Positions 36,945 to 62,942 of a stretch of DNA of 64,000 bases are shown in pieces. This DNA comes from Brugia malayi (Eukaryota > Nematoda > Chromadorea > Rhabditida > Onchocercidae): contig NW_025062477.1 in assembly GCF_000002995.4 (NCBI RefSeq), positions 10,450,649 through 10,514,648 of the forward strand, read 5' to 3'. Position 1 is the stretch's first letter. Every line of letters begins with the position of its first letter. The notes under the pieces were generated by a model. It searched no databases. It worked only from the letters and a program-made list of their open reading frames with translations, and had not been told where the DNA came from. A program made the translations under genes and the position numbers.

Positions 36945-37210
36945 TTATACCAATTAAATTGATTTTTATACCAATTAAATTGATTTTTTTATACCAAAAT
37001 TTATACTAATTAAATTGAAACTGATTAAAATTTGTAAAATTTGCTTAATTTTAACACTTATTTAGAAAAAAAAAAAATTCTATCTGGTTATTTGCATTTT
37101 TTGCAAGATTTAGCGCAGGATCTCACTGCATAATGCGGAAATCGAAAGCAATCACCGTATAGCATCACCTGACTGCAATCTTTCCATTTATCTTCACATT
37201 CTTAAAATTT
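36945..37210. repeat. Segmental duplicate of 39705-39930 (3' part of B genes)
   Basis: The sequence from ATTTTTATACCAAAATTTAT through the ShKT exon is almost identical to that around 39710-39927. It covers the last exon and 3' flank of B1 and B2. Tandem TTTATACCAATTAAATTGAT units precede it here only. Confidence 0.85.
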
Positions 37211-37603
37211 CATTTTTTTATCAATATTTTCTATCATTTCTCAGTAATAAATAATAAATGCATAATGTAATTTAGAATGACTTTGATTTAATCCATTTTA
37301 ATAATATATTTTGACTTATTTGCATATTCATCCCAAATCTATAATCAAATTTTATTTATTTTTAATTAATTCTATAATAAAGCAAATCATTGATATTACT
37401 ACAGCATATTGTAATTTCGTCGAAAATTAACAAATTATCACATAAAACACAAATTATTGAACGAAATTATTTTTATATGATAGAAAATTTTTACTTCCAT
37501 TAGTTTCGGTCTCAGTGATGATTTTATCATTAGCATCGGTTTCTTTTTCTCCAAAAATGAAACCAATACAAATAAAAATGATAGTACACGTTAATAGATT
37601 CAT
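37088..37603 (-). CDS. B1: secreted ShKT-domain peptide, 2 exons
   Basis: Exon 1 (37603-37495) encodes a signal peptide beginning MNLLTCTIIFICIGFIF followed by an acidic, Thr-rich linker. Exon 2 (37200-37088), joined in phase 1 to 2 nt, encodes a 36-residue cysteine-rich module and a TAA stop; the total is 73 residues. The six cysteines are spaced C-x6-C-x8-C-x10-C-x3-C-x2-C, the ShKT (SXC) fold pattern common in nematode secreted proteins, here the only mature domain. Such domains can block potassium channels or act as protein-interaction modules; which applies here cannot be read from sequence. It lies head-to-head with A1 (ATGs 1.43 kb apart), suggesting a shared regulatory region. Confidence 0.75.
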
Positions 37604-39028
37604 TTGAAATAAGTTCTATCTGAAATGGTAACACTAAAATATAATCAAGATTGAAAATTTTTGTGGATATGAATGAATAATTTTTATGAGTATTATTTAA
37701 AACTCATATAGATATATACTAATTGGTGGGTGGATGTTATGTTGCTGTCAAAAGTTTGAAAGATTTAAATAATTTGTGGGGAGATGGGAAGCTGAATTTT
37801 ACTTCCCTGATAATGAAATAGTTGTGTCAACATAATGATGTCAATTTGTGATAAAATTTGTATGGCGAAATATACTTTTTCACTTGTAAAATTAATACGG
37901 ATAATAAAATTGTTTAAAAAAAAAAAAAAAATGATGAAATGAAATTGAAAGTTTGAACTGCCATTATTTATTAGTTGAAATTGATGTTTGTAAAGGTAAC
38001 ATGAAAATGCATTATAGACTTGAGATTTGATTTTGGTTTTATTTTTTATTTAAAAAAGCTGATGTGAATAATTGTCTACTAATTTCAAATGAATCATGCA
38101 CTGCTTTCCTAAATTATAAAAAAAATTCCACGTATTTATTTTATAAAATTTAAATCGTAAGGATTTTTTTTTTTTTAATTTGCAAGAAATTTAAATTACA
38201 TTTGGAAAAAAGTACATCTGATTTTAGGCATTTAAGAATTAAATATTTTCAAAAAATAGTTGTTGTTTATAATTTATAACAGAAGATTACTGATAAATTG
38301 TGATAATCGTTGGGGGAACAAAATAACTTGTTGGTCACAAATTTCATTTCTCATCCGATTCAATTTGTTCGTTTTTTCCTTCCAATCAATTCGAGAGATG
38401 TAAAATTGGGGCAAAAACATAGTTTGAATCCATCTACAGATATCAGACAGGTTTCCATTCAGGAATTCCGCTATTGAAATATAAAAAGTATTGTCTTTAG
38501 TCCAGCCATTCTATATTTTTTCTTCAAAATTAAAAAAAAAATACTTTTAAGTATTACTTTTATCAGTGATAATTTCAATGCTAAATCATACTCAGAGTAA
38601 TGTACTATTCAAGAATAAATTTACTTCTTTTTGTAATCATAATGAATTATGGGAAAAAATTTGTTAAATTAACAAATGGAATGCTTGATAGAGTGACAGT
38701 TAACTTGAACAATTAATTGTTTATTATTTAAATTCTTTTTTAATTACTGTTGTTTCATGCATACTGCAAACACTAGCGGACTAACATAACAGCTTGATTA
38801 TATGCAAAAGGAATAATAGTGTAGAGAAATGATCTTTGTATAGTGTCAAAATCGAGAATGAATGAAATTTAAAAAACAAATCATCATTTAAGCCTTCTGT
38901 TGAGCATTTCATAAAAACGATAAGATCGTTTTGGATTGGATTTTGCCAAAATAATCTCGTAGTTGATCAATCAAATATATTAATAAATTGAAGTCTGCAC
39001 TTTAGCAAATATCAAAATTGCAATAAAA
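37604..39028. promoter_or_regulatory. Divergent intergenic region between B1 and A1
   Basis: No exon seen. Stretches near 37620-37960 and 38450-38510 recur in the same order in the B2/A2 (40404-41952) and B4/A10 (60796-62326) intergenic regions, so this is a repeated bidirectional control unit rather than random spacer. Confidence 0.55.
38448..38500 (+). promoter_or_regulatory. Conserved TATA block of A1
   Basis: CAGGAATTCCGCTATTGAAA followed by TATAAAAAG at 38480-38488, 549 bp before the A1 ATG. Slightly diverged from the cluster consensus. Confidence 0.6.
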
Positions 39029-39674
39029 ATGGCAAGATTAATAGTGTATCTTGCTTTCATCATCTTTTGCGCTAATCGACAACAAAATGCGGCAGTAGGA
39101 CCAGGAGGAGTAGGTATGCACCTCTTTTCGACTAAAATGAAAATCTCGAAATATATATATCTCGTATTCTACATCATTTTAACCACTTTAGTTAGATTTC
39201 TAATAAAACAGGCTGGGTTCGATTTCAATATGAATATCACTGATATTCACTTTTGCAGTGAAAATAGTATATCATTTAAAATCTCAAAGGTTTCTACTTA
39301 TAATCAAATAATCGCTAACATCAATTTCAGCCGCTGAAGTTGTCACAAATTATAGAGCTGACAAGTTATGGGATGATGATTTATTAATGGAGACAATGCA
39401 AGTAGAAGAATGTATGTTCATCTCATCAAGAATTAATTTAGGCGTCATTAAATTTTGAATGATTTCAAGGAGATTTAATTTGATAATTCCTTTCAGTTCC
39501 ATTTGCTGGCTTCTTTTTATTAAGAAATGAATGAATTTGAATAATTATTTTAATACAATGATTGCAGCAACACTGACGAATTGTGACACAATGAAAGATG
39601 GAAGATTATTTGTTTTGGAAGAAAAACCGTTGTTATTGATGACAAATACTGTTAACTTGATGAAATGGAATTAG
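39029..39674 (+). CDS. A1: small secreted peptide of an unrecognised multigene family
   Basis: Exons 39029-39113, 39331-39411 and 39568-39674 join in phase (84+1, 2+78+1, 2+105) to 90 residues. Exon 1 encodes a signal peptide (MARLIVYLAFIIFCANRQQN) and a short Gly-rich linker; exon 2 the acidic core with KLWDDDLLMETMQVEE; exon 3 the most conserved part, TNCDTMKDGRLFVLEEKP, ending NTVNLMKWN. After cleavage the protein has a single cysteine, so an intermolecular disulphide is possible. All introns are GT-AG with GTATG donors. The frame continues open into intron 1. I do not recognise a domain. A likely splice acceptor (CACTTTAG) lies about 24 nt before the ATG. Confidence 0.8.
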
Positions 39675-39704: not shown

Positions 39705-39930
39705 TAAATTGATTTTTATACCAAAATTTATACTAATTAAATTGAAACTGATTAAAATTTATAAAATTTGCTTAATTTTAACACTTATTTAGAAAAAAAA
39801 AAAATTCTATCTGGTTATTTGCATTTTTTGCAAGATTTAGCGCAGAATCTCACTGCATAATGCGGAAATCGAAAGCAATCACCGTATAGCATCACCTGAC
39901 TGCAATCTTTCCATTTATCTTTGCATTCTA
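39705..39930. repeat. Segmental duplicate of 36945-37210
   Basis: Second copy of the ShKT-exon segment, nearly identical, placed tail-to-tail against the end of A1. This shows that B/A pairs were duplicated as a unit. Confidence 0.85.
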
Positions 39931-40403
39931 AAAAAATCATTTTCTTTTTGTTAATATTTTCAAAATTTTCTTTTTATGAATTCACTTATTATTTTTTTTT
40001 ATTTTTTACACTTATTGTTTTTTTTTATATTTACAACGAACAATTTAGAAAATTTTTGATTTTAATCTATTCCAATGCTATATTTTGTCTTATTTGCATA
40101 TTCATTTCAAAATTTATTCTAATTCTATTTGATCTTAATTTATTTAAAATTCAAATAAAAATACATCACCATAATTCTTTTTACTGTTTTTTTTTTTTTT
40201 TTTTTTTTTTTTTTGTATACAAATTAGTAAATGATACTATTATCACATTATAAAAAATTTTTACTTTGTTTGGGTGTAGGTTTTTTTTTTTTGTTGGGAT
40301 ATTTACGGCTAGTGAGTCCTTTGATTCCTTTTTTGTGGGTTTCTTTTTTTCCAAAAATCAAACCAATACAAATGAAAATGATAACATACGTGGAGAGATT
40401 CAT
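39815..40403 (-). CDS. B2: secreted ShKT-domain peptide, 2 exons
   Basis: Exon 1 (40403-40265) starts MNLSTYVIIFICIGLIFG and runs into a strongly basic linker with four consecutive lysines. Exon 2 (39927-39815) carries the ShKT module with all six cysteines at the same spacing as B1; total 83 residues. Compared with B1 the ShKT exon is nearly unchanged, but the linker is completely different in sequence, length and charge (acidic in B1, basic here). B2 is divergent from A2 (1.55 kb between ATGs) and convergent with A1 (140 bp between stop codons). Confidence 0.75.
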
Positions 40404-41040: not shown

Positions 41041-41530
41041 AAAAATGAATTTAGGCATTTAAAAGTTAAACATTTTTCAAAGATAATCGTTATATATAAT
41101 TTATAATAAATTGTGACAATTGCTGAAGAGAGAATAAAATAACTTAAAATCAAGTTTTTTTTCTGATAAAAACCTGATGATTAAAAATCCATCCTTTTCA
41201 TTATTTATCCAATTTAATCTATCCTTTGTTTTTCTTCAACTGAATTCGAGAAATATGAAAATCACAGCAAAAACATAAGTAGTTTGAATGCATCTAACAG
41301 ATATCAGACAGGTTCTATTCAGGAATTCCGCTTTTGAAGTATAAAAAGTGCTGTTTTTAGGTCTTCAACCACTAGTTGGTTCCACTATTCCCCACTTTTT
41401 TTCAATATTTAATAAAATAGTTTTAGATATTATTTCTATCAGTGAAAATTCCCTGTGTTAAATAATGCTCGGAGCGAGATCAAATTTAAAATCAATTTGT
41501 TGTATTAATAATCCTTTGTTTTACTTCAAA
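41041..41530. repeat. Segmental duplicate of 43343-43831 (A2 and A3 upstream regions)
   Basis: About 490 bp upstream of A2 are nearly base-for-base identical to the region upstream of A3 at an offset of about 2300 bp. Similarity ends abruptly after TTGTTTTACTTCAA, marking a recombination or conversion boundary. Confidence 0.9.
41310..41370 (+). promoter_or_regulatory. Conserved TATA block of A2
   Basis: ATCAGACAGG, CAGGAATTCCGCTTTTGAAG and TATAAAAAG (41340-41348), 613 bp before the A2 ATG. Confidence 0.65.
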
Positions 41531-41952: not shown

Positions 41953-42587
41953 ATGGCAAAATTGATAGTGTATCTTGCTTTCATCATTTGTTGTAATCGA
42001 CAGCAAAACGGAGCAGTAGTACAAGGAGGAGTAGGTATGCATCTCTCTTTAAGTAAAATGAAAATCTCGACATTTACACTGCATTCTAAATTATTTTAAC
42101 CACTTTAGCCTGATTTCTGATAAAACAAGTAGCGTTAGATTTAATTCGATTATCACTGATATTCATTTTTGCAATGAAAACAGCACATCATTTTTTTTTT
42201 TTAAATCTCAAAGGTTTTGCTTGTTTTGTAAGCTTAATCAAATAATCCATGGTGCCAATTTCAGTCGCTGATGTTATCACAGATTATAAAGCTGACAAGT
42301 TATGGGCTGATGACTTATTAATGAAGACAATACAAGTGGAGGAATGTATGTCCATTTCATGAAGAAATACTTAGGCATTATTTAATTTTGAGTGTTAATT
42401 TTTAGTTCCATTCGTCGGCTTCTTTTTATTAAGATAGGAATGAATTTAAATAATTAATTATTTCAATAAAATGATTGCAGCAACACTGACGAATTGTGAC
42501 AAAATGGAAAATGGAAGATTATTTGTTATGGAAGAAAAACCGTTGTTATTGATGACAAATACTGTTAACTTGATGAAATGGAATTAG
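41953..42587 (+). CDS. A2: small secreted peptide, A family
   Basis: Exons 41953-42034, 42265-42345 and 42481-42587 give 89 residues. Signal peptide MAKLIVYLAFIICC, then a linker of Gly, Ala, Val and Gln. The core reads KLWADDLLMKTIQVEE, with WA and MK where most paralogues have WD and ME or MA. Exon 3 has TNCDKMENGRLFVMEEKP and the full LMKWN ending. An acceptor (CCCTTTAG) precedes the ATG by about 35 nt. Divergent partner of B2. Confidence 0.8.
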
Positions 42588-43342: not shown

Positions 43343-43831
43343 AATTTGAATTTAGGCATTTAAAAGTTAAACATTTTTCAAAGATAATCGTTATATATAA
43401 TTTATAATAAATTGTGACAATTGCTGAAGAGAGAATAAAATAACTTAAAATCAAGTTTTTTTTCTGATAAAAACCTGATGATTAAAAATCCATCCTTTTC
43501 ATTATTTATCCAATTTAATCTATCCTTTGTTTTTCTTCCACTGAATTCGAGAAATATGAAAATCACAGCAAAAACATAGGTAGTTTGAATGCATCTAACA
43601 GATATCAGACAGGTTCTATTCAGGAATTCCGCTTTTGAAGTATAAAAAGTGCTGTTTTTAGGTCTTCAACCATTAGTTGATTCCACTATTCCCCACTTTT
43701 TTTCAATATTTAATAAAATAGTTTTAGATATTATTTCTATCAGTGAAAATTCCCTGTGTTAAATAATGCTCGGAGCGAGATCAAATTTAAAATCAATTTG
43801 TTGTATTAATAATCCTTTGTTTTACTTCAAC
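43343..43831. repeat. Segmental duplicate of 41041-41530
   Basis: Upstream region of A3, nearly identical to that of A2; see 41041-41530 for boundaries. Confidence 0.9.
43612..43675 (+). promoter_or_regulatory. Conserved TATA block of A3
   Basis: CAGGAATTCCGCTTTTGAAG then TATAAAAAG at 43641-43649, 616 bp before the A3 ATG. Confidence 0.65.
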
Positions 43832-44256: not shown

Positions 44257-44975
44257 ATGTCAAAATGGATACTGTATATTGTTTTCATCATTTATTGTGC
44301 TAATCAGGCACAAAACGCAGGAGGAGGAGGAGGAGGAGGAGGACCAGCAGGTGCAGCAGGAGTAGGTATGCATCACTTTATAAGTAAAATGAAAATCTCG
44401 ATACAAATATATCTTGTATTCTACATCATATTAACCACTTTAGTTAGACTTCTGATAAAACACGCTCGGTTCGATTTCAATTTGAATATCACTGATATTC
44501 ACTTTTGCAGTGAAAAGAGTATATCATTTAAAATCTCAAAGGTTTCTACTTATAATCAAATAATGCTAACATCAATTTCAGCCGCTGAAGTTGTCACAAA
44601 TTATAGAGCTGACAAGTTATGGGATGATGACTTATTAATGGAGACAATGCAAGTAGAAGAATGTATGTTCATTTTATAAGGAATTAACTTAGGCATTATT
44701 TAATTTGGAGTGATTTCAAGATGATTTAAGATGAATTTGACAATTCCTTTTAGTTCGATTCGTAGACTTCTTTTTATTGAGGAAACTATGAATTTAAATA
44801 ATTAAAAAAATTATTTAATAACTAAGAAATAATTTAAAAAAGAGAAAATCTCTATACAACGATTGCAGCAACATTGACGAATTGTGACACAATGGAAAAT
44901 GGAAGATTATTTATTTTGAAAGAAAAACCGCTGTTATTGATGGCAGATACTGTTAACTTGATGAAATGGAATTAG
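44257..44975 (+). CDS. A3: small secreted peptide with poly-Gly linker, A family
   Basis: Exons 44257-44365, 44582-44662 and 44869-44975 give 98 residues, among the longest of the set. The signal peptide (MSKWILYIVFIIYCANQ) is followed by eight glycines in a row encoded by a GGA repeat, then PAGAAGV. The core is KLWDDDLLMETMQVEE; exon 3 has TNCDTMENGRLFILKEKP and MADTVNLMKWN. Intron 1 is exactly 216 nt and free of stops in frame, so an unspliced reading continues through exon 2 to 44679 (140 residues) and would contain an extra hydrophobic segment. Confidence 0.8.
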
Positions 44976-46522: not shown

Positions 46523-46530
46523 ATGGCAAA
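45510..46530. repeat. Left arm of ~1-kb inverted repeat (A4 upstream)
   Basis: Runs from near TTTTTGTCGGATTTAAGTAA to the start of A4 and matches the reverse complement of 49780-50790 closely, including CCGGTCATATTCAGTCCTTC and AAGCGATTCAGATCAGATCG. The arms flank A4, a Pao remnant and A5. Confidence 0.9.
46045..46090 (+). promoter_or_regulatory. TATA block of A4 (variant type)
   Basis: GATCGCAAAGTATAAAAAGC with TATAAAAAG at 46061-46069, 462 bp before the ATG. The TATA core is kept, but the GGAATTCC part of the cluster consensus is replaced. Confidence 0.55.
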
Positions 46531-47145
46531 GTTGATAGTGTATCTTGCTTTCATTATATATTGTGGCAGAGCTGCTAATCAGCAACAAAACGCGCAAGGA
46601 ATGAGAATAGGAATAGGTATGAATCTCTTTTTAAGTAAAGTGAAAATCTTTATAACTCGTATATTACATCATTTGAACCGCTTTATCCAAGATTCTTGAT
46701 AAAACAGGAAAGTGATTTTAATTCGGATGCCACCTGTCATTTTCAAGTCGGAAAAGTTCCTGTTTTTTCTGTAATTTTAAACAAATAATTCATGGCATCA
46801 ATTTCAGTCGCTGATGTTATCACAGATTATAAAGCTGAAAAGTTGTGTGATGATGAGTTACTAATGGCGACAAAACAAGTAGAGGAATGTATGTTCATTT
46901 CACAAAAAATTAATTTAGACATTATTTGATTTTGAATGATTTCAAGAAGATTTAATTTAATAAATCCTTTTAGTTCCATTCATCGGCTTCTTTTTATTAA
47001 GAAAGGAATGAATTTGAATAATTATTTCAATACAATGATTGCAGCAATAATGACGAATTGTGACACAATGAAAGATGGAAGATTATTTATTTTGGAAGAA
47101 AAACCGCTGCTATTGATGACAAACACTGTTAATCTGATAAATTGA
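46523..47145 (+). CDS. A4: small secreted peptide, A family, short C terminus
   Basis: Exons 46523-46616, 46808-46888 and 47045-47145 give 91 residues. Signal peptide MAKLIVYLAFIIYCGRAAN. The core has KLCDDELLMATKQVEE, where the usual Trp is Cys, adding a second mature cysteine. Exon 3 has SIMTNCDTMKDGRLFILEEK and stops at NLIN because the TGG of LMKWN is TGA. Exons 2 and 3 are identical in protein sequence to A7 over nearly their whole length, while exon 1 differs. It lies in the left half of the inverted duplication, facing A5. Confidence 0.8.
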
Positions 47146-49330
47146 AATTAGGAGAATGTAAATATGCAAGTGATTGACGGTCATATTTCAATAAATTGAA
47201 AACATCGAGTTGTTAATAAAGAAAATGCAAAAAGGAAAATCGGCAAAAAAAATTTATGGTTGGAAGTGATAAAAATGGACAATTTGAAATTTTATTTCAT
47301 AACAGAAATGATCAACAGAACTCGGAATTAATAGCATTATGTTTTTTCTTGTGTATGAAATTACAACACTAAACTACTGCTCCATCCATTTGAAAAATTT
47401 TCAAAGTTTGTTATTTTTTCTAGTAGATGACTTCAAAAACTAATCAGTGGATGATATTTTAGTTGTAGTAAGGTACTGCTGTATAACTGTTCGAAGTGTC
47501 ACACGAGATTTGCTTACTGTAATTATTAATAATGTTTATTAATTAAATTCGATGAACAAATTATTAATACTAATTGTTGTTAAGATCAAAAATTAGTAGC
47601 AATAAATAATGAATAATAGGCAATTATTAATAATTTAATTAATAATGCGCTAAGGATAGAGAAAATTAGAGTGGAATATAATAATTATGTAAAATGGAAT
47701 TTTACGTTGACAATGTTACATCATTAGTTAAGGGAACTCAGAAGGCACGAAGAAACAAAATGTATCTTCAAAGAAGCCTCAATGAACATTAGAGAATTCC
47801 TTTCAAATGACAATGAATTCAACAAAATTATTTTTAAGCACATCAAGCAGAATTCATTGGAATCGATTATGTCGGTCCTCGTTTTATTAAAACTCAGATT
47901 TGCCAATTTCAAAAGATAGATGGCACTCTTCACATCGAGATTAGAATTAGTAGAAAATCTGTCGTCCGAAGATTTTTTGCACTTTAAGAAGATTCGTTCA
48001 ATTGGTTTTTATATCATTATGGAACGAAATGCACAACAGAGTTCTTAACAATCGGTATAAAGTTGTTATGGGAAAAAGAGTTGATAACACTAATAGTAGA
48101 AAGAAATTACGTCCACTGACTTACGCAAATTTTGAAGATTGTTTAATCATGCGCAGAACTGATTTCGTTTCACCTAACGCTTCCCTCAATGTTCCAATCT
48201 TTAACGACAATGACCCCCGCAGAATTTTCATCACACAAACCAAATAACAAAGAGAAACTTATTAAGTACTGGTCAAGCATCCTTGGAATACAAGGAAAAA
48301 TGAATATTTGACCAGCCTTCGAGAAAGAACTCAAAGAGAACAAGAGCTCTCCGGGAGGGATTGTGCAATGAACTGAAAATTTCGCGTTCCATGTGTGTCT
48401 TTTGTTAGAGACCAAATCGATTTGCAATGACGAATTGAATTGTTCCAGAAGTCTTTTGATCTGACAGTCACACTTATAAGCAACTGATACTATATGCAAT
48501 GTTAAGAGCGAACTTCTACTATGTAAAGAGGAAAAATCGTTCAATTGATAATGACAGCTCTTTACTCACTGTCACGCGTTTTGTCCTAAGCCAATGTCCA
48601 CTAGATGAAAAGTTTGGATCAAAAAAAAAAAGTATTTTAAGGTTCGACTCTATTTGCCTTTTGCGCACTCAGTTCAAAAGGCAATGAATGGCGCAGTAGT
48701 AGCAATAAGTGCGGAACGAAAGTACGACAATTTAGCACAAACTTTGATGGATTATTGGTATAATTCTATATTTAATTTATTAATTTATTCCCTATTGTTG
48801 TATAAATACGACATTGTAAACGAGCAATAAATCTGTGCAGTTATGATAACAGCAAAATCATTTACGTATTATTTAAAAAACTTTCTTGATATTAATTGGA
48901 GAATATAGAGAAGTAAAAAAAAAATTAAATAATTTGGAAAGCTAACAACTGAAGAATAACAATCCACAATGTGTTTAATCTTTGTTATTCATTTTTGTTT
49001 TAAAATAAAATTGCAATTAATCTGATTCCACTGTTTTCCTTTTTTTTTTTTCGTTTGATTTACCTTTTTCCGACTTTTTTTATTAACAGCCTGATCTTCT
49101 CAATATATTGAAATGTGATCTTCAATTAATATTTAATCACTTGCACATTGCACATTTACATTTTCCTAATTCCATTTCATCAAGTTAACAGTATTTGTCA
49201 TCAATAACAACGGTTTTTCTTCCAAAACAAATAATCTTCCATCTTTCATTGTGTCACAATTCGTCAGTGTTGCTGCAATCATTGTATTAAAATAATTATT
49301 CAAATTCATTCCTTTCTTAATAAGAAGAAG
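46815..49330. repeat. 2.5-kb segmental duplication, copy 1 (other copy 53758-56275)
   Basis: Covers exons 2-3 of A4, the Pao remnant and exon 3 of A5, and is nearly identical to 53758-56275 at an offset of about 6945 bp with a few small indels. Similarity drops inside exon 2 of A4/A7 and inside the A5/A8 3' region, so the ends fall within genes. Confidence 0.9.
47700..48850 (+). mobile_element. Decayed BEL/Pao retrotransposon remnant, copy 1
   Basis: Short in-frame blocks separated by stops and frameshifts match the Pao type: SMNIREFLSNDNEFNK (near 47778-47830, reverse-transcriptase region), DYVGPRFIKTQ (near 47868-47900, integrase), LSSEDF, and RPLTYANFEDCLIMRR with DFVSPNASLN (48110-48190, integrase end). 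An LTR-like tail with CAATAAATCTGTGC follows to about 48850. Most of gag and pol and the 5' LTR are absent, so it cannot be autonomous. It sits between the convergent A4 and A5. Confidence 0.75.
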
Positions 49331-50790: not shown

Positions 50791-50894
50791 TTTGTATTTC
50801 TTTGGAAAAATTTTCACTGATAGAAATAATATCCAAAAGCATTTTCTTAAATATTAAATAAAAGGTGGGGAATAGTGGAACCAACTAATGGTTG

Positions 50895-50944
50895 GTGACC
50901 TAAAAACAGCACTTTTTATACTTCAAAAGCGGAATTCCTGAGTA
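50895..50944 (-). promoter_or_regulatory. Orphan TATA block fused to A6 exon 3
   Basis: Minus-strand CAGGAATTCCGCTTTTGAAG and TATAAAAAG (50920-50912) directly adjoin the broken end of A6 exon 3. It points towards A5 but lies a further 0.7 kb out, so it is probably a deletion relic. Confidence 0.5.
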
Positions 50945-51535
50945 GTCCAAAGCAAATAATCTTCCATCTTCCATTGTGTCACAATTCATCAATGTTGCTG
51001 CAATCATTCTGTTGAAATAATTATAAATCCATTTTTTCTTTATAAAATGAAAGCCTGGAACTATAAGGAATTATCAAAGTAAACCTCCTTGAAATCATCC
51101 AAAATTAAATAATGCCTAAATTAATTTTTTGTGAAATGAACATACATTCTTCAATTTGTGTTGTCGCTATTAGTAAGTCATCATCCCACAACTTTTCAGC
51201 TTTATAATCTGTGATAACATCAGCGATTGAAATTGGTGCTAGAGATTATTTGATTAAAATTACATAAAAGATGGAAACCCTAGAGACTTGAAATGATAAT
51301 ATGTTGTTTCTATTACAAAAACGAATGTCAGTGATATTCGAATTGAAATCGAATACTTACTGTTTTATCAAAAATCTGACTAAAATGGTTAAAATGATAT
51401 ATAATGGGATGTAAATACTGAGATTTTTATTTTACTTAAAAAGTGATGCATACCTACTACTGCTCCCATTCCTTGCTGATTTTGTTGCCGATTACAAAAG
51501 ATGATAAAAGCAAGATATACTACCAATTTTGTCAT
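50945..51535 (-). pseudogene. A6: truncated, splice-damaged A-family pseudogene
   Basis: Exon 1 (51535-51454) is intact: MTKLVVYLAFIIFC, linker QQGMGAVV. Exon 2 (51226-51146) keeps the core KLWDDDLLIATTQIEE, but the acceptor before it reads TTTCAA instead of TTTCAG. Exon 3 (from about 51002) keeps TLMNCDTMEDGRLF, then at about 50945 the sequence jumps into a promoter-type block, replacing the conserved C terminus. The lost acceptor and the chimeric 3' end both argue that it is dead. Its head-to-head neighbour B3 is also broken. Confidence 0.8.
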
Positions 51536-51989
51536 TTTTCAAGTTTGGTTTATTGCAACTTTGATATTTGTTAAAAAATTCACTTTACTAAAATTTTTTA
51601 ATGATACAGCTACGGAATCATTCCGACACAAACTGATCCGAAACAGTTTAATCGTTTTATGAAATGCTCAACTCAAGGTTTAATTGATAATTTGTCGTTA
51701 AATTTCCATGTCTTTCTTGAAAACAAGGTAAAAAAAAATTTGAATAGTCGACAAATTGTTTAATTTTTATTAATTTAGTAAATTTGTTTTCATAACTCAT
51801 TTACTAATATATTGAATTATTAAACAGCAAATTTGAAGTAATACAAAAGTTTATTAATACAACAAATTTATTTTAGATTTAATATTGCTCCGAGCATGAT
51901 TTAACACAGGGATTTCCACTGATAGAAATAATATCTAAAACTATTTCCTTAAATATTGAAAAAAGTGGGGAATAGTGGAACCAACTAAT

Positions 51990-52070
51990 GATTGAAGATC
52001 TAAAAACAGCACTTTTTATACTTCAAAAGCGGAATTCCTGAATAGAACCTGTCTGATATCTGTAGTTGTA
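51990..52070 (-). promoter_or_regulatory. Conserved TATA block of A6
   Basis: Minus-strand ATCAGACAGG, CAGGAATTCCGCTTTTGAAG and TATAAAAAG (52020-52012), 485 bp before the A6 ATG. The promoter block is intact although the gene is not. Confidence 0.6.
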
Positions 52071-52538: not shown

Positions 52539-52658
52539 ATGAATCTCTCCATATATGTTATTATTTTGGCTTGTCTTGGCTTCATTTTGGAAAAAAAACA
52601 AATTGCTGAAAAAGAAACCCCTGTTATCAATGAAAGCGAAACTGCTACAATTAAATGA
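52539..52658 (+). pseudogene. B3: orphan signal-peptide exon of the B family
   Basis: MNLSIYVIILACLGFIL plus an acidic linker (EKETPVINESETATIK) matches exon 1 of B1/B2, but a TGA falls just before the donor-like AAGTATAAAT, and no ShKT exon follows: the sequence goes straight into the A7 upstream region. It is divergent from A6, the reversed form of the B/A pairing. It could make only a 39-residue secreted peptide. Confidence 0.65.
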
Positions 52659-52934
52659 AGTATAAATTTTCTAATATTTCTTATTTTTCATAAAAAAAGT
52701 TAAATGTTTTCAGAAACTAGTCAATGATTATAATTTATAATAAAAGATCACTGATAAATTGTGATAAGTGCTGGTGAATGAAATTAAATGAAATCAAGTT
52801 TTTTTTTTTCGAGAAATCCGTTTTTTCTTTTTGATTACTTATTCGATTCAATCTATCCTTTTTTTTCTTTCACTGAATTATGCAAAAATTACAGCAAAAA
52901 ACACAAGTAGTTTGAATGCATCTACAGACATCAG

Positions 52935-53000
52935 ACAGGTTCTATTCAGGAATTCTGTTTTTGAAGTATAAAAAGTGCTGTTTTTAGGTCTTCAACCATT
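52935..53000 (+). promoter_or_regulatory. Conserved TATA block of A7
   Basis: CAGGAATTCTGTTTTTGAAG and TATAAAAAG at 52967-52975, 477 bp before the A7 ATG. Confidence 0.6.
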
Positions 53001-53443
53001 AGTCGTTTCCACCCTTTTTTTTTTCAATATTTAAGAAAATAGTTTTAGATATTCTTTCTATCCACGAGAATTTCCTGTGTTAAATAATGCTCGGAGGAAT
53101 ATGAAATTTAAAATGACTGAATTAGGTGTATTAATAATTCTTGTTTTATTCGATAAAAATAAATTTGTTAAATTAGAAACAAGCGTAAAGTTTTATACGG
53201 TTACAATTAACTTGAACAATACAAACGTTCGTTAGCTGAATCATTTAAGTCTTCCGTATAACTACAAAATCAAGAATGATATTAAAATTGAAATACAAAT
53301 GATCAGTTAAGCCTAATTGAGCATTTTATAAAACGGTTAAAACCTTTAGGTGTATCGAAATAATATCATAGTTAAAATTAGAGTGCATCAATAAAATCTG
53401 TAATTTAGGAAATATTGAAGTTGCACTAAAACTAATTTGAAAT

Positions 53444-54088
53444 ATGTCAAAGCTAATAGCGTGTCTTGCTTTAATCATGTATTGTGGTAATCAGCAACAA
53501 AATGCAATGGGAGCAAGGGGAGCAGTAGGTATGGATCTCTCTTCAAGTAAAACAAAATCTTGATATATATATATGTACATATATATACCGTATCATTGAA
53601 GCCATTTTGGTCAAGATTTCTCATACAAGAGGAAAGTGATTTCAATTCGAATTGGTACTCTGTAATGGAAACTGAGCTGTCACATTATCATTTCAAATCA
53701 ACAAGGTTTAAAACTTTTCTGCAGTTTTAATCAAATCTCTTTTTTTTTAGCCGCTCAGGCTGTCACAGATTATAAAGCTGAAAAGTTGTGTGATGATGAG
53801 TTACTAATGGCGACAAAACAAGTAGAAGAATGTATGTTCATTTCACAAAAAATTAATTTAGACATTATTTGATTTTGAATGATTTCAAGAAGATTTAATT
53901 TAATAAATCCTTTTAGTTCCATTCATCGGCTTCTTTTTATTAAGAAAGGAATGAATTTGAATAATTATTTCAATACAATGATTGCAGCAATAATGACGAA
54001 TTGTGACACAATGAAAGATGGAAGATTATTTATTTTGGAAGAAAAACCGCTGCTATTGATGACAAACACTGTTAATCTGATAAATTGA
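53444..54088 (+). CDS. A7: small secreted peptide, A family, short C terminus
   Basis: Exons 53444-53528, 53751-53831 and 53988-54088 give 88 residues. Exon 1 encodes MSKLIACLALIMYCGN and the linker QQQNAMGARGAV. Exon 2 begins AAQAVTDYKAEKL and then matches A4 (LCDDELLMATKQVEE). Exon 3 and the whole 3' flank are the A4 version, with the early TGA giving NLIN. The head of the gene thus comes from one lineage and the tail from another. Convergent with A8 across Pao copy 2. Confidence 0.8.
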
Positions 54089-56275
54089 AATTAGGAGAAT
54101 GTAAATATGCAAGTGATTGACGGTCATATTTCAATAAATTGAAAACATCGAGTTGTTAATAAAGAAAATGCAAAAAGGAAAATCGGCAAAAAAAATTTAT
54201 GGTTGGAAGTGATAAAAATGGACAATTTGAAATTTTATTTCATAACAGAAATGATCAACAGAACTCGGAATTAATAGCATTATGTTTTTTCTTGTGTATG
54301 AAATTACAACACTAAACTACTGCTCCATCCATTTGAAAAATTTTCAAAGTTTGTTATTTTTTCTAGTAGATGACTTCAAAAACTAATCAGTGGATGATAT
54401 TTTAGTTGTAGTAAGGTACTGCTGTATAACTAACTGTTCGAAGTGTCACACGAGATTTGCTTACGGTAATTATTAATAATGTTTATTAATTAAAATCGGT
54501 GAACAAATTATTAATACTAATTGTTGTTAAGATCAAAAATTAGTAGCAATAAATAATGAATAATAGGCAATTATTAATAATTTAATTAATAATGCGCTAA
54601 GGACAGAGAAAATTAGAGTGGAATATAATAATTATGTAAAATGGAATTTTACGTTGACAATGTTACATCATTAGTTAAGGGAACTCAGAAGGCACGAAGA
54701 AACAAAATGTATCTTCAAAGAAGCCTCAATGAACATTAGAGAATTCCTTTCAAATGACAATGAATTCAACAAAATTATTTTTAAGCACATCAAGCAGAAT
54801 TCATTGGAATCGATTATGTCGGTCCTCGTTTTATTAAAACTCAGATTTGCCAATTTCAAAAGATACACACACACACATCGAGATTAAAATTAGTAGAAAA
54901 TCTGTCGTCCGAAGATTTTTTGCACTTATTAAGAAGATTCGTTCAATTGGTTTTTATATCATTATGGAACGAAATGCACAACAGAGTTCTTAACAATCGG
55001 TATAAAGTTGTTATGGGAAAAAGAGTTGATAACACTAATAGTAGAAAGAGATTACGTCCACTGACTTACGCAAATTTTGAAGATTGTTTAATCATGCGCT
55101 GAACTGATTTCGTTTCACCTAACGCTTCCCTCAATGTTCCAATCTTTAACGACAATGACCCCCGCAGAATTTTCATCACACAAACCAAATAACAAAGAGA
55201 AACTTATTAAGTACTGGTCAAACATCCTTGGAATACAAGGAAAAATAAATATTTGACCAGCCTTCGAGAAAGAACTCAAAGAGAACAAGAGCTCTCCGGG
55301 AGGGAGGGATTGTGCAATGAACTGAAAATTTCGCGTTCCATGTGTGTCTTTTGTTAGAGACCAAATCGATTTGCAATGACGAATTGAATTGTTCCAGAAG
55401 TCTTTTGATCTGACAGTCACACTTATAAGCAACTGATACTATATGCAATGTTAAGAGCGAACTTCTACTATGTAAAGAGGAAAAATCGTTCAATCGATAA
55501 TGACAGCTCTTTACTCACTGTCACGCGTTTTGTCCTAAGCCAATGTCCACTAGATGAAAAGCTTGGATCAAAAAAAAAAAGTATTTTAAGGTTCGACTCT
55601 ATTTGCCTTTTGCGCACTCAGTTCAAAAGGCAATGAATGGCGCAGTAGTAGCAATAAGTGCGGAACGAAAGTACGACAATTTAGCACAAACTTTGATGGA
55701 TTATTGGTATAATTCTATATTTAATTTATTAATTTATTCCCTATTGTTGTATAAATACGACATTGTAAACGAGCAATAAATCTGTGCAGTTATGATAACA
55801 GCAAAATCATTTACGTATTATTTAAAAAACTTTCTTGATATTAATTGGAGAATATAGAGAAGTAAAGAAAAATTTGAGTAATTTGGCTAACAACTGAAGA
55901 ATAATAATCCACAATATGTTTAATCTTTGTTATTCATTTTTGTTTTAAAATAAAATTGCAATTAATCTGATTCCACTGTTTTCCTTTTTTTTTTTTCGTT
56001 TGATTTACCTTTTTCCGACTTTTTTTATTAACAGCCTGATCTTCTCAATATATTGAAATGTGATCTTCAATTAATATTTAATCACTTGCACATTGCACAT
56101 TTACATTTTCCTAATTCCATTTCATCAAGTTAACAGTATTTGTCATCAATAACAACGGTTTTTCTTCCAGAACAAATAATCTTCCATCTTTCATTGTGTC
56201 ACAATTCGTCAGTGTTGCTGCAATCATTGTATTAAAATAATTATTCAAATTCATTCATTTCTTAATAAAAAGAAG
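53758..56275. repeat. 2.5-kb segmental duplication, copy 2
   Basis: Second copy of 46815-49330. Small differences include an added GGGA in a GGGAGGGAGGGA run near 55300 and a short CA repeat near 54866-54876. Confidence 0.9.
54640..55800 (+). mobile_element. Decayed BEL/Pao retrotransposon remnant, copy 2
   Basis: Near-identical to copy 1 and carries the same disabling breaks, so it was copied as part of the larger segment and not by transposition. Here LSSEDFLHLLRRFVQL reads through in one frame at about 54903-54950, which confirms the integrase assignment. Confidence 0.75.
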
Positions 56276-56594
56276 CCAGCAAATGGAACTGAAAGGAATT
56301 ATCAAATTAAATCTCCTTGAAATCATTCAAAATTTAATGACGCCTAAATTAATTCTTGATGAGATGAACATACATTCTTCTACTTGCATTGTCTCCATTA
56401 ATAAGTCATCATCCCATAACTTGTCAGCTCTATAATTTGTGACAACTTCAGCGGCTGAAATTGATGTTAGCGATTATTTGATTATAAGTAGAAATCTTTG
56501 AGATTTTAAATGATATACTCTTTTCACTGCAAAAGTGAATATCAGTGATATTCAAATTGAAATCATGTTTTATCAAAAATCTAAGTGGTTGAAA

Positions 56595-56655
<61 letters not shown>

Positions 56656-56782
56656 GGATTTTCATTTTACTTAAAGAGAGATGTATACCTGCTCCTGCTG
56701 CTGCTGCTCTTGCTCCTGCTTGAGCGTTTTGTTGTCGATTACAACATATGATGAAAGCAAGAAACACTATCAGCTTTGACAT
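56111..56782 (-). CDS. A8: small secreted peptide with Ala-rich linker, A family
   Basis: Exons 56782-56689, 56454-56374 and 56217-56111 give 93 residues. Signal peptide MSKLIVFLAFIICC, then the linker QAGARAAAAGA encoded by a GCA/GCT-rich repeat. The core KLWDDDLLMETMQVEE matches A1 and A3 exactly, and exon 3 is the TNCDTMKDGRLFVLEEKP form with LMKWN. Intron 1 carries a long TA repeat. Convergent with A7. Confidence 0.8.
56597..56654. repeat. (TA)n microsatellite in A8 intron 1
   Basis: About 28 TA units inside the first intron, just after the donor region. Confidence 0.95.
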
Positions 56783-57369
56783 ATTTGAAATTAGTTTTAT
56801 TGCAACTTTAATATTCCCTAAAGTGCTGATTTCACTTTATTGATACATTTTAATTTTGATTACGGTGTTATTTCAAAGCTGTAGGATCCGAAACTTTTTA
56901 ACTGTTTTATGAAATGCTCATCAATTTTAATATTACTTTTGCTTTTTTCCTTATACAAAAATGTTGAATTATTTAATTAATGATTGTTTGTTTACACTAT
57001 CATTCTTTTATCTATAATGCAGTTTTTGTATTGGTCTGCTAATTCTGCAGCATGCATGAAATAGCCGAGACGCATTTACATACATTCAGGAAAACAGTAA
57101 TTAAAAAAGAATTTGAATAATCAGCAGTTTAATTGTTGAAGTTAACTGTCACCATTTCAAACATTGCGCTTGTTGTTAATTTCACAAATTTATTCTCATA
57201 GCCCATTATTAATACAAAAAAAAAAAAAAAAAATCCCAAATATGTCAATTTATTGTTTTACATTACTCAGGAAAAGAAATTCTCATTGATGTAGCTAAAA
57301 ATAATATTTGAAAATATTTTCTTAAATATTGGAAAAAAAAGGTGAAGAATGGTGGAACCGACCAATGGT

Positions 57370-57440
57370 GGAATGCCTAAAAACAGCACTTTTTATACTT
57401 CAAAAGCGGAATTCCTGGGTGGAACCTGTCTGATATCTGA
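57370..57440 (-). promoter_or_regulatory. Conserved TATA block of A8
   Basis: Minus-strand ATCAGACAGG, CAGGAATTCCGCTTTTGAAG and TATAAAAAG (57397-57389), 615 bp before the A8 ATG. Confidence 0.65.
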
Positions 57441-57599: not shown

Positions 57600-58420
57600 T
57601 TTTTTTATTAATTACAAAAGCAGTGTTGACGTCAGTGTTTCATGTGTCATGTGAGTTTTTCAAGAAAAATGTTTTCAAAAATAAATAAACTTTTTTTTTC
57701 AATGTTTTAAAATACAAATAAATAAATGTTTTCAAAAAACAAAAAATAAAAAAAAAATATTAATAAATGAAATTATTTTTGTATTGTAAAGAATTTTTAC
57801 TTAAAATTATGCAGCAATTTATCATTAATGATTTCATTCCCTAATTCGTGCTTTCGGATATGCATAAACGAAATCAGTTATCATTACCTCACTTAATTTA
57901 TTAATTTTCTACAAAATTACGATATACTAATATCAATGATTTGTAATATAAATGATTTGCTTTATTGTATAATTAATTAAAAGTAAATAAAATTTGAATA
58001 AATTTAAGATGAATGGAAGATAAGCCAAAGTAAACTTTTAAGGTAGTTTAAGTGAAAATTATTTCATAAAACAAAAGTTGAAAATATTGACATAAAATGA
58101 ACTTTTCAGAAGATAAATGGAAGGATTACAGTCAGATGATGTTACATGGTGAATACATTTGACATCTGTAAGATTCTTCGTGTACTTCGTTGACAATGTT
58201 GTCAACATAATGTTGCCAATATGTGACAAAATGTTTATGATGCAATGTACTTTTCATTTGTAAAATTGATACTGATAACAAAATTGTTTAAAGAAAATAA
58301 TGATAAGATAAAATCGAAAATTGAAATACGTATCGATCATTAGTTGAAAAAAATAAATCTATCTAAAAGACAACATGAATATTATACGAAAAGTAATAGT
58401 ATTTTCTAGGCTAGCATTAT
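57600..58420. other. Remnant of a B-side region lacking its exons
   Basis: Stretches near 57610-57790 and 58190-58380 resemble the sequence on either side of B4 exon 1 (60480-60640 and 61060-61200), but no MNLS signal-peptide exon or ShKT exon lies between them. A B gene has probably been deleted here, between A8 and A9. Confidence 0.45.
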
Positions 58421-58542: not shown

Positions 58543-58854
58543 TTGCAAAAATTTCAGAGAAAGAAAAATCTGACTTGAGACATTTTAGATGTTAAATGTT
58601 TTCATAAATAGCTACTTTCTATAATTTATAACAAAGAATTGCTGATAAATTGTGACAATTGCTGAAGATTAAAATAACTTAAAATCAAGTTTTTTTTTTC
58701 AAAAAAAAAGAAACAACTTGGTGGTTTAAAATCCGTTTTCTTTTTTTGATTACTTACTCGATTCAATCTATCCTTTTTTTTCTTCCACTGAATTCGAGAA
58801 ATGTAAAAATCACAGCAAAAACATAAGTAGTTTGAATATATCTACAGATATTAG

Positions 58855-58920
58855 ACAGGTTCTACTCAGGAATTCCGCTTTTGAAGTATAAAAAGTGTTG
58901 TTTTTAGGTCTTCAACCACT
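58855..58920 (+). promoter_or_regulatory. Conserved TATA block of A9
   Basis: CAGGAATTCCGCTTTTGAAG and TATAAAAAG at 58887-58895, 649 bp before the ATG, the longest spacing in the set. Confidence 0.65.
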
Positions 58921-59535
58921 AATCGGTTCCACCATCTCCACTTTTTTCAATATTTAAGTTTCTATCACTGAAAATTTCCTGTGTTAAATCATGCTCGAAG
59001 CAATATAAAATTTAAATTCGCATTATTAATAATTCACTGTAATCAGTTGTTGTCAATAATAACAATTAATAACAAGTGCAGTGCTTGATAACTGGGTGAC
59101 AATTAACTTGAACAATTTATTATTTACTATTCAGATGATTATTTTGATTGCTGTTTTTGTAAATGTATCTGAGCTATGTCATGCATAATGCAAACATTAG
59201 CAGATTTATTCTGCTATGTGTGTTCAAGTTTTAATTGAATGCATTAAATGTGTGTTTAATTGAATATATTTTTTTTAATTTGAATGTGTCTATAAAAAAT
59301 GAATGATTGCTTATAAATGAACGTTAATTAAATCATTTCATGTCTTCCATTTAGGGACAGAATCAAGAATGATGTAGAAATTGAAAGATAAATCATCCAT
59401 TAAGCCTCCCATTGAGCATTTTATAAAACATTTAAAACCGTTTTGGATCTGACTATGTAAAAAATACCGAAGTTAAAATTAGAATAAAATGAAATCAGCA
59501 CTTCAGGAAATATTGAAATAAAACTAATTTTAAAT

Positions 59536-60357
59536 ATGTCAAAATTGATAGTATATCTTGCTTTCATCACATATTGTGGCAGAGCTGCTAACCAAAGAAA
59601 CCGAGTCGCAGGTATCAAACAACTTCTCACTTTTCTTCTATTATTTTATTTCACTTCCAAATGAGATACAAATTTTAATATGTAATTCGCTCATTCTCAA
59701 TCGTTCCAAACATTTTACTTAGACAAAACAGCATTTAATATGAAAGTAATTTCATTTCGAATGCTAGTGAAATCATTTTTGCAATATCAATAGTGACAAA
59801 CAACGAATAATTAAAATAAAATAACAACTTAATCATTTGAAAAAAAAAAAATATTACTGTAATTCTTTGCGAAAAAGAAATTCGAAGAAGTGGAAAATAA
59901 AACTTCAAAGGACTAATTTATGACTGATAATTTGAAGTGATAGCTTGTTCTTTAATCTTAATGGGATATTCTTAGCACCAATTTCAGCCGCTGATCTTAT
60001 CATAGATCATAAAGCTGATAAGTTATGGGATGATGGCATAATAATGGAGACAAAACAAGTAGAAGAATGTATGTTCATTTCACCAAGAATTAATTTAGGC
60101 ATTATTCAATTTTGTGATTTCGAGAAGATTTAATTTAATAATTCTTTTTAGTTCGATACATGAGCTTTTTTTTATTAACGAAATAATGAATTTAAATAAT
60201 TAAAAGATAATTTAAAAAAATAAAAAAAAATTTCTATATAACGATTGCAGCAACACTGATGAATTATGACACAATGGAAAATGGAAGATTATTTATTTTG
60301 GATGAAAAATCGCTGTTATTGATGACAAATACTGTTAATCTGATAAAGTGGAAATAG
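59536..60357 (+). CDS. A9: divergent A-family peptide lacking the conserved cysteine
   Basis: Exons 59536-59611, 59988-60068 and 60251-60357 give 87 residues, the shortest. Signal peptide MSKLIVYLAFITYCGRAAN, linker only QRNRVA. The core is KLWDDGIIMETKQVEE (DGII for DDLL). Exon 3 reads TLMNYDTMENGRLFILDEKS: Tyr replaces the otherwise invariant Cys and Ser the Pro of EEKP. The end is NLIKWK. Reading frame and splice sites are intact, so it is either a neofunctionalised or a slowly decaying copy. Intron 1 is long (376 nt) and A-rich. Confidence 0.75.
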
Positions 60358-60659
60358 GAGAATATAAATGATTCTTCAATGTTAGCCTTAAATTATTTGT
60401 TTTTTTTTTTTTTTTTTTTACAATTTCTCTATAATTTTTAAATAATATGTGTATGATACAATTTAAATTATATAATTTGGAATTTTACTAATTACAAAAG
60501 CAGTAATAATATCAATAAGCCATGTGAGATTATTCAAATAATACTTTATATCAGTGATTTTAAAAAGAAAAAAAAATCGAAAAATAAAAATTATATTAAT
60601 GAATGAAATTATTATTGTATTGTAGAAAATTTTTACTTTGTTTATGAATGAAATTGTAT

Positions 60660-60795
60660 TGTAAAAAAATTTTATTATTACTTTGTTTACTTTTTATTTT
60701 CATTGATAATAAGGGTTTCTTTCTCAGCAATTTCTTTTTCTTCGAAAAAAGAAGCTAAAGCAAGCCAAAATAATAATATATATGGAGAGATTCAT
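60660..60795 (-). pseudogene. B4: frameshifted B-family signal exon
   Basis: From ATG at 60795 the sequence gives MNLSIYIIILACFSFFF, then a one-base change in a T run shifts the frame to RRKRNC and a TGA. The shifted sequence still encodes the EIAEKET-type linker of B3 in another frame. A donor-like AAAAAGTAAAC follows near 60690, but no ShKT exon lies between it and A9. Divergent with A10. Confidence 0.65.
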
Positions 60796-62326
60796 TTGAA
60801 ATAAGTTGTATCTAAAATGAAAACATTAAAATATAATAAAAGATGAAAAATTTCATGGATATGAAGGAGTAATTTTTATGATAATTATCTAAAACTCATA
60901 GAGATATACACGAATTGGTAGAGAGCATAAATGATACGCAATTTTCATTTCAAATGTTTTGTTGCTGCCAAAAATTTGGTTACTTTAAGTTATTAAATAA
61001 ATTGTGAGAGGATGGGAAGTTGAATTATCGGTGATGAAATGATTTTGTCAAATTAATAATGTCAATATGTGACAAAATGTTTATGGTTGCAATGTATTTT
61101 CCATGTGTAAAATTGATATGGGTAATAAAATTGTTTTAAAAAATAAGGATAAAATAAAATCGAAGGTTGAAGCTTGTAATTATTACTTGAAATGAATAAA
61201 TGTTTGTAAAGGCAACATGAATATTGTTGGAAAAGTGATAATACTTTTTAAGCTAGCATTATAAACTTCAGATTTGATTTTATCTTTTTTTTAAATCTGA
61301 AAACGCTGATATGAACTATCGTTTGACTAATCTCGGATAAATTACTGATCAACATGCTTATTTTATAAAAATTTACACTGCAAGGATTCCAGCGCAAAAA
61401 ATCTGATTTCAAACATTTGAAAGTTAAATATTTTTAAAAAAGTTACTTTCTAAAATTTGTAACAGAGAATTAGGTAATTTGTTACAATTGCTGAAGACTA
61501 AAATAACTTAAAATCAAGTTTTTTTTTTTTTCAAAAAACAAAAAGAAAAAAGCAACTTGGTGATTTTATTTATTTTTTTTTCAATACTTACTGATCCAAT
61601 CTATACCTTTTTTCTTCCACTGAATTCGAAAAATGTGAAAAACACAGCAAAACCATAGATAGTTCAAATACATCTACAGATATCAGACAGGTTCTACTCA
61701 GGATTTCCGCTTTTGAAGTATAAAATGTGTTGTTTTTAGGTCTTCAACCATTAGTTGGTTCCACTATTCCCCACCTTTTATTTAATATTTAAGAAAATGT
61801 TTTTGGATATTATTTCTATCAGTGAAAAGTTTTTTGCGTTAAATCATGCTTGGGGCAATATAAAATTTAAGATAAATTTTTTGTTTTAATAATCTTTTGT
61901 TTTACTTCAAATTTGCTGTTTAATTATTCAGGTATTAGTAAATAACTTATGAGAGCAAATTTGTCAGATTGATAAAATACTCTACAAAATGCTATATACA
62001 GTTAACTGAACAATGTATTATTAATTATTCAAATTCTTTTTTGTTTATTGTTTTCTTGAATGCATGTAAATGCATCTGAGCTATTTCGTGCATGCTGCAA
62101 GAATAGCATAGCAATACAACGACTGCATAGCGAAAAATCAAGAGTAATATGAAAATTAAGGGACAAAAAAGGGACAAATCAATTAAGCCATCCATTAAGC
62201 ATTTCATGAAACGATAAAACCGCTTCGGATCTGATTTTGTTGAAATAATACCGTAGCTAAAATTACAAATTATCAATAAAACGCATTTCAGGAAATATTG
62301 AAATTGCAATAAAACTAATTTGAAAT
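60796..62326. promoter_or_regulatory. Divergent intergenic region between B4 and A10
   Basis: Retains the B/A spacer elements (for example GTCAATATGTGACAAAATGT near 61060 and the TATA block near 61719). No exon seen. Confidence 0.5.
61680..61760 (+). promoter_or_regulatory. Conserved TATA block of A10
   Basis: CAGGATTTCCGCTTTTGAAG (one change in the GGAATTCC core) and TATAAAATG at 61719-61727, 608 bp before the ATG. Confidence 0.55.
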
Positions 62327-62942
62327 ATGTCAAAGTTGATAGTATATCTTTCTTTCATTGTCTATTGTGGTAATCAGCAACAAAATCGGCAAGGAATGAG
62401 AGTCGCACCAGTAGGTATGCATCGACCTCTCAGTAAAATAAAAATCTCGAAATATATATGAATCTCGTATTTTACATCATTTCAATCACTTTAATCTGAT
62501 TTCTGATAACAGGTAGCAGATTTCAATTCGAATATCGCTGATATTCCTTTTTTATCATTTAAAATTTTAAAGTTTTGTACTTCGTTTGTAATTTTAATCA
62601 AATAATCAATTCCAGCTGCTGATGTTATCACAGATTATAAACTTGACAAACTGTGGGATGATGAGTTACTGATGGAGATAACGCAAGTGGAAGAATGTAT
62701 GCTCATTTCATGAAGAATTAACACAAGCATTATCTTTTAAGTGATTTCAAGGAGATTTAATTTCATAATTCGTTTTAGTTTTTAGTTTCTTTTTATAAAA
62801 AGGAATGAATTTGAATAATTATTTCAATACAATGATTGCAGCAACATTGACGAATTGTGACACAATGGAAAATGGAAGATTATTTATTTTGGAAGAAAAA
62901 CCGCTGCTATTGATGACAAACACTGTTAATCTGATAAATTGA
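62327..62942 (+). CDS. A10: small secreted peptide, A family, short C terminus
   Basis: Exons 62327-62414, 62616-62696 and 62842-62942 give 89 residues. Signal peptide MSKLIVYLSFIVYCGN, linker QQQNRQGMRVAPV. The core has KLWDDELLMEITQVEE, exon 3 TLTNCDTMENGRLFILEEKP, and it stops at NLIN like A4 and A7. A clear acceptor (GCATTTCAG) lies 36 nt before the ATG. Divergent partner of the damaged B4. Confidence 0.8.

Follow-up and report, generated by a model that had tools for sequence, protein, structure and literature searches.

The 64-kb stretch of Brugia malayi DNA analysed here (positions 10450649-10514648; the window) carries ten loci of a three-exon family of predicted secreted peptides, called A, together with genes of ShKT type, called B. 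The A loci occupy 39029-62942 on both strands, nine of them open and one (A6) damaged. The original prediction had counted these ten three-exon copies correctly but had understated the extent of the family: an eleventh gene of the same cluster (A11, in L031) begins 2.5 kb past the end of the window, and genome-wide protein searches located two further clusters, which occupy 11.09-11.14 Mb and 11.51 Mb of this contig and so lie at distances of about 0.6 and 1.0 Mb. Taken as lower bounds, the counts give at least 23 complete A genes in the genome (cluster 1 has 11, including the damaged A6, cluster 2 has 9 and cluster 3 has 3), and all copies fall within 1.02 Mb of one chromosome, including three orphan exons (an exon 1 with a stop codon at 11.078 Mb, an exon 1 at 11.107 Mb and an exon 3 at 11.514 Mb). 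Besides this genome-wide inventory, the analysis adds to the original prediction an exchange between gene parts that has made mosaics of the cluster 1 genes, a fifth B remnant, and an acceptor-like site before the start codon.

The A genes and their predicted proteins

On the forward strand lie A1 (Bm10174; exons 1 to 3 at 39029-39113, 39331-39411 and 39568-39674; protein identical to P0003), A2 (Bm10173; 41953-42034, 42265-42345 and 42481-42587; identical to P0001), A3 (Bm10172; 44257-44365, 44582-44662 and 44869-44975; one residue from P0018), A4 (46523-46616, 46808-46888 and 47045-47145; nearest database entry Bm13490, whose C-terminal end differs), A7 (53444-53528, 53751-53831 and 53988-54088), A9 (59536-59611, 59988-60068 and 60251-60357) and A10 (Bm13488; 62327-62414, 62616-62696 and 62842-62942; identical to P0016). 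On the reverse strand, again listed from exon 1 to exon 3, lie A5 (Bm10170; 49704-49791, 49426-49506 and 49166-49272; identical to P0007), A6 (51454-51535, 51146-51226 and 50900-50997) and A8 (Bm10171; 56689-56782, 56374-56454 and 56111-56217; one residue from P0004). The A11 protein also equals its database entry exactly; such identical entries probably come from the same assembly and are uninformative on allelic variation between individuals.

Gene models were made for 22 A genes, namely the 11 of cluster 1 (one outside the window), 8 of cluster 2 and the 3 of cluster 3; the ninth cluster 2 gene is known from exon matches alone. Exon 2 measures 81 nucleotides (nt) in all 22 models, both introns are in phase 1 with donors that start GTAT, and the length of exon 1, which takes seven distinct values between 76 and 109 nt, leaves a remainder of one on division by three in every model, with all three remainders represented among the intron lengths. 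The exon 2 acceptors of A5, A6 and A9 were moved by hand 12 nt from the first choice of the script to the position common to the others, and the exon 1 donor of A5 was likewise reset by hand. Between cluster 1 and clusters 2 and 3, exons 2 and 3 have a synonymous rate (dS) of 0.645 and a nonsynonymous rate (dN) of 0.218, a ratio of 0.34 (55 core codons, 110 pairs, A6 excluded); the ratio is 0.22 for the core within clusters 2 and 3 and a weaker 0.57 within cluster 1, and comparison of the signal segment from cluster to cluster gives 0.21 (121 pairs, A6 included), the pairs behind these figures not being independent. With the phase of exon 1 kept throughout, an exon 2 of constant length and purifying selection on the core, the A frames are coding and behave as genes constrained by such selection.

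The predicted proteins share one layout. Residues 4-13 are hydrophobic (mean hydropathy 2.2-3.5), Cys14 is present in 22/22 models, and 20/22 have I or V at residue 12. Signal peptidase sites follow the -3,-1 rule, and this combination of a hydrophobic stretch, I or V at residue 12 and C14 fits cleavage after C14; the A start is probably a signal peptide cut after the invariant cysteine, as judged from hydrophobicity only. Past C14 comes a linker, or tail, of 11-27 residues (longest in the cluster in A3, shortest in A9) made up almost wholly of A, G, Q, N, V, R, M and P; among 61 proteins its composition is 27% A, 22% G, 15% Q and 10% N, with almost no S, T, K, D, E or aromatic residues. The remaining core of about 60 residues is conserved and acidic, the predicted mature net charge being -2 to -7 across the models if the cut falls after C14. 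The predicted mature protein has a single cysteine in 18 of the 22 models; A4 and A7 have two each, A6 has three and A9 has none. The stereotyped arrangement of signal peptide, variable linker and acidic core that had been proposed is borne out by the alignment. Pfam scans of the A proteins gave only stray weak matches, of which the best was to PF23240 (E 0.0031, 18 bits against a cut-off of 27.7), and no relative of A emerged when solved structures were searched by profile (E of 0.44 or worse).

Several copies deviate. In A6 the usual exon 2 acceptor position reads AATTTCAA, and exon 3 runs on into a copy of the promoter block described below, which replaces its end; splicing may instead go to an AG that lies 12 nt before the usual acceptor, an alternative that is used by the A6 database model (P0095) and by a B. 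pahangi relative (P0073). The core cysteine of A9, in exon 3, is replaced by tyrosine. In A4 and A7 a cysteine substitutes for the core tryptophan, a residue kept in 51/51 aligned database proteins.

Upstream of the genes, a 105-nt probe containing TATAAAAAG has 11 matches genome-wide, all of them in cluster 1. The matches lie on the forward strand ahead of A1 (38431-38500, 89% over 70 nt), A2 (41291-41395, with TATAAAAAG), A3 (43592-43696), A7 (52919-53012), A9 (58840-58935) and A10 (61671-61774), on the reverse strand ahead of A6 (51965-52063) and A8 (57347-57439), within the 3' end of A6 (50865-50945, reverse strand; about 1.1 kb ahead of A5), and twice at 1.1-2.2 kb upstream of A11; A4 has no match to this probe. 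A related-looking consensus was seen by eye nearer the ATG in clusters 2 and 3. TATA-like words are frequent in A+T-rich DNA, so that only the block as a whole counts. An acceptor-like AG some 20-40 nt ahead of the ATG was detected by script pattern in 16 of the 22 A genes and was added by eye in A5, C2d, C2h and C3c; A6 has lost the site, the retrieved sequence of C2a is cut off before it, and B1 and B2 carry a similar site. We infer that it serves as an acceptor for trans-splicing or for an intron in the 5' untranslated region.

Distribution and exchange between copies

An alignment search for relatives of A, in which 7,994 candidates were scored, returned 106 proteins at E up to 10, all of them from B. 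malayi, B. pahangi, B. timori, Wuchereria bancrofti or Loa loa. As far as the database reaches, the predicted lineage-restricted family with a signal-peptide-like start therefore holds (106/106 from Brugia, Wuchereria and Loa); proteins of Onchocerca and Dirofilaria, whose database coverage is unassessed, do not occur among the 106. Family entries include Bm10168, Bm10170-Bm10174, Bm13488-Bm13490 and Bm459-Bm461 among others in B. malayi, the QQG55 set in B. pahangi, and LOAG_15445 and others in Loa loa. The B. pahangi locus tags form three runs (26980-27040, 27330-27360 and 27565-27580), which suggests the same three clusters. Most entries are named uncharacterised, hypothetical or unnamed and a few carry mutually conflicting automatic domain names; the Pfam column is empty for every relative, and none of the 106 has an assigned function. 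A search of article text (supplementary files lay outside it) by 24 gene names confirmed no paper on the A genes, although one article (PMC4154664) contains a single mention of Bm13488, and none on the family was recognised from the titles and abstract openings of the matches listed in a search by topic.

The A genes of cluster 1 are mosaics, which had not been reported. Over 55 pairs, identity in the front of the gene (300 nt upstream plus the signal segment) is uncorrelated with identity in the back (exon 2, intron 2, exon 3 and 3' flank; r = 0.03). A4 and A11, for example, are 0.99 identical in front and 0.81 in back, and A4 and A7 are 0.59 in front and 0.99 in back. Neighbouring segments correlate strongly, the linker and intron 1 at 0.67 and exon 3 and the 3' flank at 0.61, but the correlations drop with distance along the gene, to 0.05 between front and exon 3. 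Exon 2 is tied more closely to intron 1 (0.47) than to exon 3 (0.20), which implies that the switch point varies among genes. Similarity between copies is 0.85 in intron 2 and 0.86 and 0.88 in the exons that flank it; an intron as alike as its exons would not be expected from selection on the protein alone, and exchange or recent copying is a better account.

Inverted repeats of 523 nt at 98% and 489 nt at 99% identity are also present, as are repeated segments spaced 6.94 kb apart at 99-100%; such repeated and inverted segments are raw material for exchange. Between tail-to-tail A genes, a segment of about 2 kb occurs at 47150-49240 and at 54100-56185 with about 99% identity, and a piece of it recurs at 42.9-43.2 kb; its core (48.35-48.75 kb) is matched at six places genome-wide, of which four lie inside the window. 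Two cluster 2 genes (L033 9345-9979 and L037 2240-2874), in opposite orientation and separated by about 33 kb, encode identical proteins, which points to a large inverted duplication or recent conversion. Orphan exons at L035 2109-2177 (exon 1) and L040 4196-4258 (exon 3) lie at the margins of clusters 2 and 3.

Comparison of 10 B. malayi with 9 B. pahangi genes gave five pairs that were reciprocal best matches by linker. Linkers of these partners are 0.89 identical versus 0.39 and 0.41 among paralogues, a figure inflated by the choice of pairs on the linker itself; the exon figures are unaffected by that choice, and the partners are 0.885 identical in exon 2 versus 0.73 and 0.75 among paralogues, whereas at 0.78 in exon 3 they are no closer to each other than paralogues are (0.81 and 0.78). 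The linkers, rich in A, G, Q and N, thus likely mark orthologues between species. The word GGLF, read by eye in exon 3, is present in 6 of 10 B. pahangi cluster 1 proteins (QQG55 set) versus 0 of 11 in B. malayi, a pattern that would fit homogenisation of exon 3 within species.

B genes and surroundings

The left edge given for the cluster in the original prediction, 37088, is the stop codon of B1. B1 (exon 1 at 37495-37603, exon 2 at 37088-37200) and B2 (exon 1 at 40265-40403, with a donor at 40307 also possible, and exon 2 at 39815-39927) are complete two-exon genes on the reverse strand, head-to-head with A1 and A2, respectively. Their first exons encode a signal-like start and a linker, and their second exons encode six cysteines with a CxxxCxxC end. 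The linker is acidic in B1 and lysine-rich in B2, so that the B copies as well differ mainly in the linker. The protein of B1 is Bm516 (P0107), and UniRef names B as ShKT domain-containing. In the genome 58 of the 67 PF01549 stretches listed pass the cut-off, and B is not among the stretches listed; the A proteins that were scanned have no match to PF01549. A profile search of solved structures found nothing for B at E up to 1. The ShKT exon of B1 has two matches only in the genome, B1 and B2 themselves, and close relatives of B were found in cluster 1 only. In W. bancrofti there is one clear homologue (P0108), with a linker that resembles that of B2; Loa and B. pahangi yielded no B in a search in which just three candidates were scored.

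Both intact pairs, and the damaged B3 beside A6 (52539-52643, forward strand, exon 1 only) and B4 beside A10 (60733-60795, reverse strand, a broken exon 1), are as first described, each of these remnants lying head-to-head with its A gene. A fifth, previously unreported copy, B5, consists of a partial ShKT exon (58106-58153, forward strand) head-to-head with A8. Duplication of B and A as a paired unit is supported for part of cluster 1: five units align in parts, and the principal alignments between unit U2 and the other B/A units run at 67-82% identity and extend into the B exons; the upstream DNA of A3, A7 and A9 also aligns to U2. The proposal that B was lost more often than A agrees with the counts in cluster 1, where B is broken in 3 of 5 copies and A in 1 of 11. 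Co-organisation of A with B as a rule is not supported, since an intact B adjoins only 2 of 23 A genes and clusters 2 and 3 yielded no B, from which it follows that A needs no adjoining B. The pairing is local to cluster 1.

Elsewhere in the window, positions 1-20400 of the forward strand are intron-rich and include an exon for a DnaJ domain at 12372-12701 (PF00226, E 2.2e-12; DnaJ structures also match), perhaps part of a homologue of RME-8/DNAJC13 to judge from length and layout. A long run of CA/TG dinucleotides at 36120-36440 lies about 0.6 kb ahead of the cluster. No Rfam family reaches its gathering score in the window.

Interpretation and known systems

The account put forward here, held at about even odds (roughly 0.5), is that A is a filaria-restricted, probably secreted family whose cluster 1 copies have been recombined and whose products most likely serve as excretory/secretory proteins at the host interface, with B as an ordinary ShKT neighbour. 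Copies would arise by tandem and inverted duplication, and exchange within cluster 1 has joined front parts (upstream DNA, signal and linker) to other back parts (exon 3 and its flank); the clearest cases have their switch within intron 1 or close to it, and others further along. Gene structure, coding constraint, mosaicism and, as far as the database reaches, distribution are shown by the sequences. Beyond these, the proteins would leave the cell and most plausibly act outside the worm; the many copies could supply both dose and N-terminal variety over a near-constant core. B would have been carried along, head-to-head, in part of cluster 1.

Several observations weigh against this account. 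In clusters 2 and 3 the front correlates with intron 1 at 0.64 and with exon 3 at 0.33, and the mosaic is less clear there. Between species exon 2 follows the linker, so that exons 2 and 3 do not form a single fixed module, and trees of the segments show grouping by species only weakly (over 27 rows, the species label changes 11 times in the tree of signal plus linker and 8 times in each of the two exon trees, for exons 2 and 3). The ratio of nonsynonymous to synonymous differences (pN/pS) in the linker is 1.06 in clusters 2 and 3 and 1.14 in cluster 1, with pS raised as well; differences raised at synonymous sites also point to mutation or old divergence and give no clear sign of host-driven selection. 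AlphaFold models of A are poor (mean predicted local distance difference test scores of 49.5 and 51.2), and a long beta hairpin is at best hinted at in them. Proteins of reproduction, moreover, can evolve in a like manner.

Positive selection on the linker was considered separately and is not established, given the raised pS and a cluster 1 upstream region nearly as diverged: the proportion of differing sites in cluster 1 is 0.372 in the upstream 300 nt and 0.416 in the linker, and only in clusters 2 and 3 does the linker (0.338) exceed both its upstream (0.197) and intron 1 (0.190) flanks.

The main rival, possible if somewhat doubtful, is that the A proteins are secreted in reproduction or by the embryo, as components of the seminal or uterine fluid, the eggshell or the sheath of the microfilaria, and that their low-complexity tails lend them a matrix property. 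Brugia, Wuchereria and Loa are filariae with sheathed blood microfilariae, which agrees with such a role, as do the tails rich in A, G, Q and N and the general frequency of fast-duplicating mosaic families among reproductive proteins. The three genera are related, however, so that the correlation with the sheath may have a single origin, and Litomosoides is also sheathed but has no protein among the 106 relatives, the database coverage of that genus being unassessed. It is improbable that A and B form one functional system expressed from a shared divergent control region, for example a peptide and its partner. Two intact and three broken head-to-head pairs with alignable spacers, the lysine-rich linker of B2 facing an acidic A, and the W. 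bancrofti homologue of B would suit such a system, but the acidic linker of B1, the scarcity of intact B genes beside A and the empty results for Loa and B. pahangi (three candidates scored) speak against it. The reading of the A frames as decayed or non-coding repeat copies with an artefactual protein, to which one damaged copy, three orphan exons, a setting amid direct and inverted repeats and an AATAAA no commoner within 150 nt past the stop than in shuffles (8 of 22 genes versus 11.8 expected, which leaves a polyadenylation signal unsupported) would lend themselves, is strongly disfavoured by the frame kept in 22/22 models, purifying selection, conserved splice sites, homologues in five species and the restriction of copies to three neighbouring clusters. 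A is accordingly rejected as a dispersed repeat.

Brugia, Wuchereria and Loa infect people, and B. malayi causes human lymphatic filariasis; small, probably secreted proteins so far known only there are natural candidates for infection markers and for host-facing biology. The exchange of front and back parts makes the family a good candidate for a product that the worm may release. The clusters also illustrate a near-constant core to which each copy brings its own tail and control region.

Among known systems, the transthyretin-like family (PF01060) was considered as an origin for A and rejected, since 0/51 A proteins match it at E up to 1. The likeness had arisen from a KLWDDD-like stretch, a feature of that family, and from automatic names on two members. 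True transthyretin-like matches in B. malayi are many, and many of them start or finish at model positions 23-25; the A motif lies inside exon 2. B resembles ShKT peptides in its six cysteines and CxxxCxxC end, with a Pfam score for B1 just below the cut-off (ShK, PF01549; 20.2 bits against 20.9; E 0.00091). A parallel to A in design is offered by the HYP effectors of potato cyst nematodes, which are described as secreted and modular, with variable and conserved parts, their variation being reported as allelic and made of repeated motifs (PMC4177990; PMC11228951). A is like HYP in its signal-like start (assigned from hydrophobicity only), variable part and conserved remainder, and is unlike it in that the A linkers are short, gene-specific and common to likely orthologues between species. 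The A clusters might be a module-swapping system of an animal-parasitic nematode, in which recombination inside the genes goes on joining different units of promoter, signal and tail to a common core and a stable set of gene-specific tails and separate control regions is carried on one secreted scaffold, a design similar to that of HYP but fixed in the germline; the suggestion is a tentative one, on the unlikely side.

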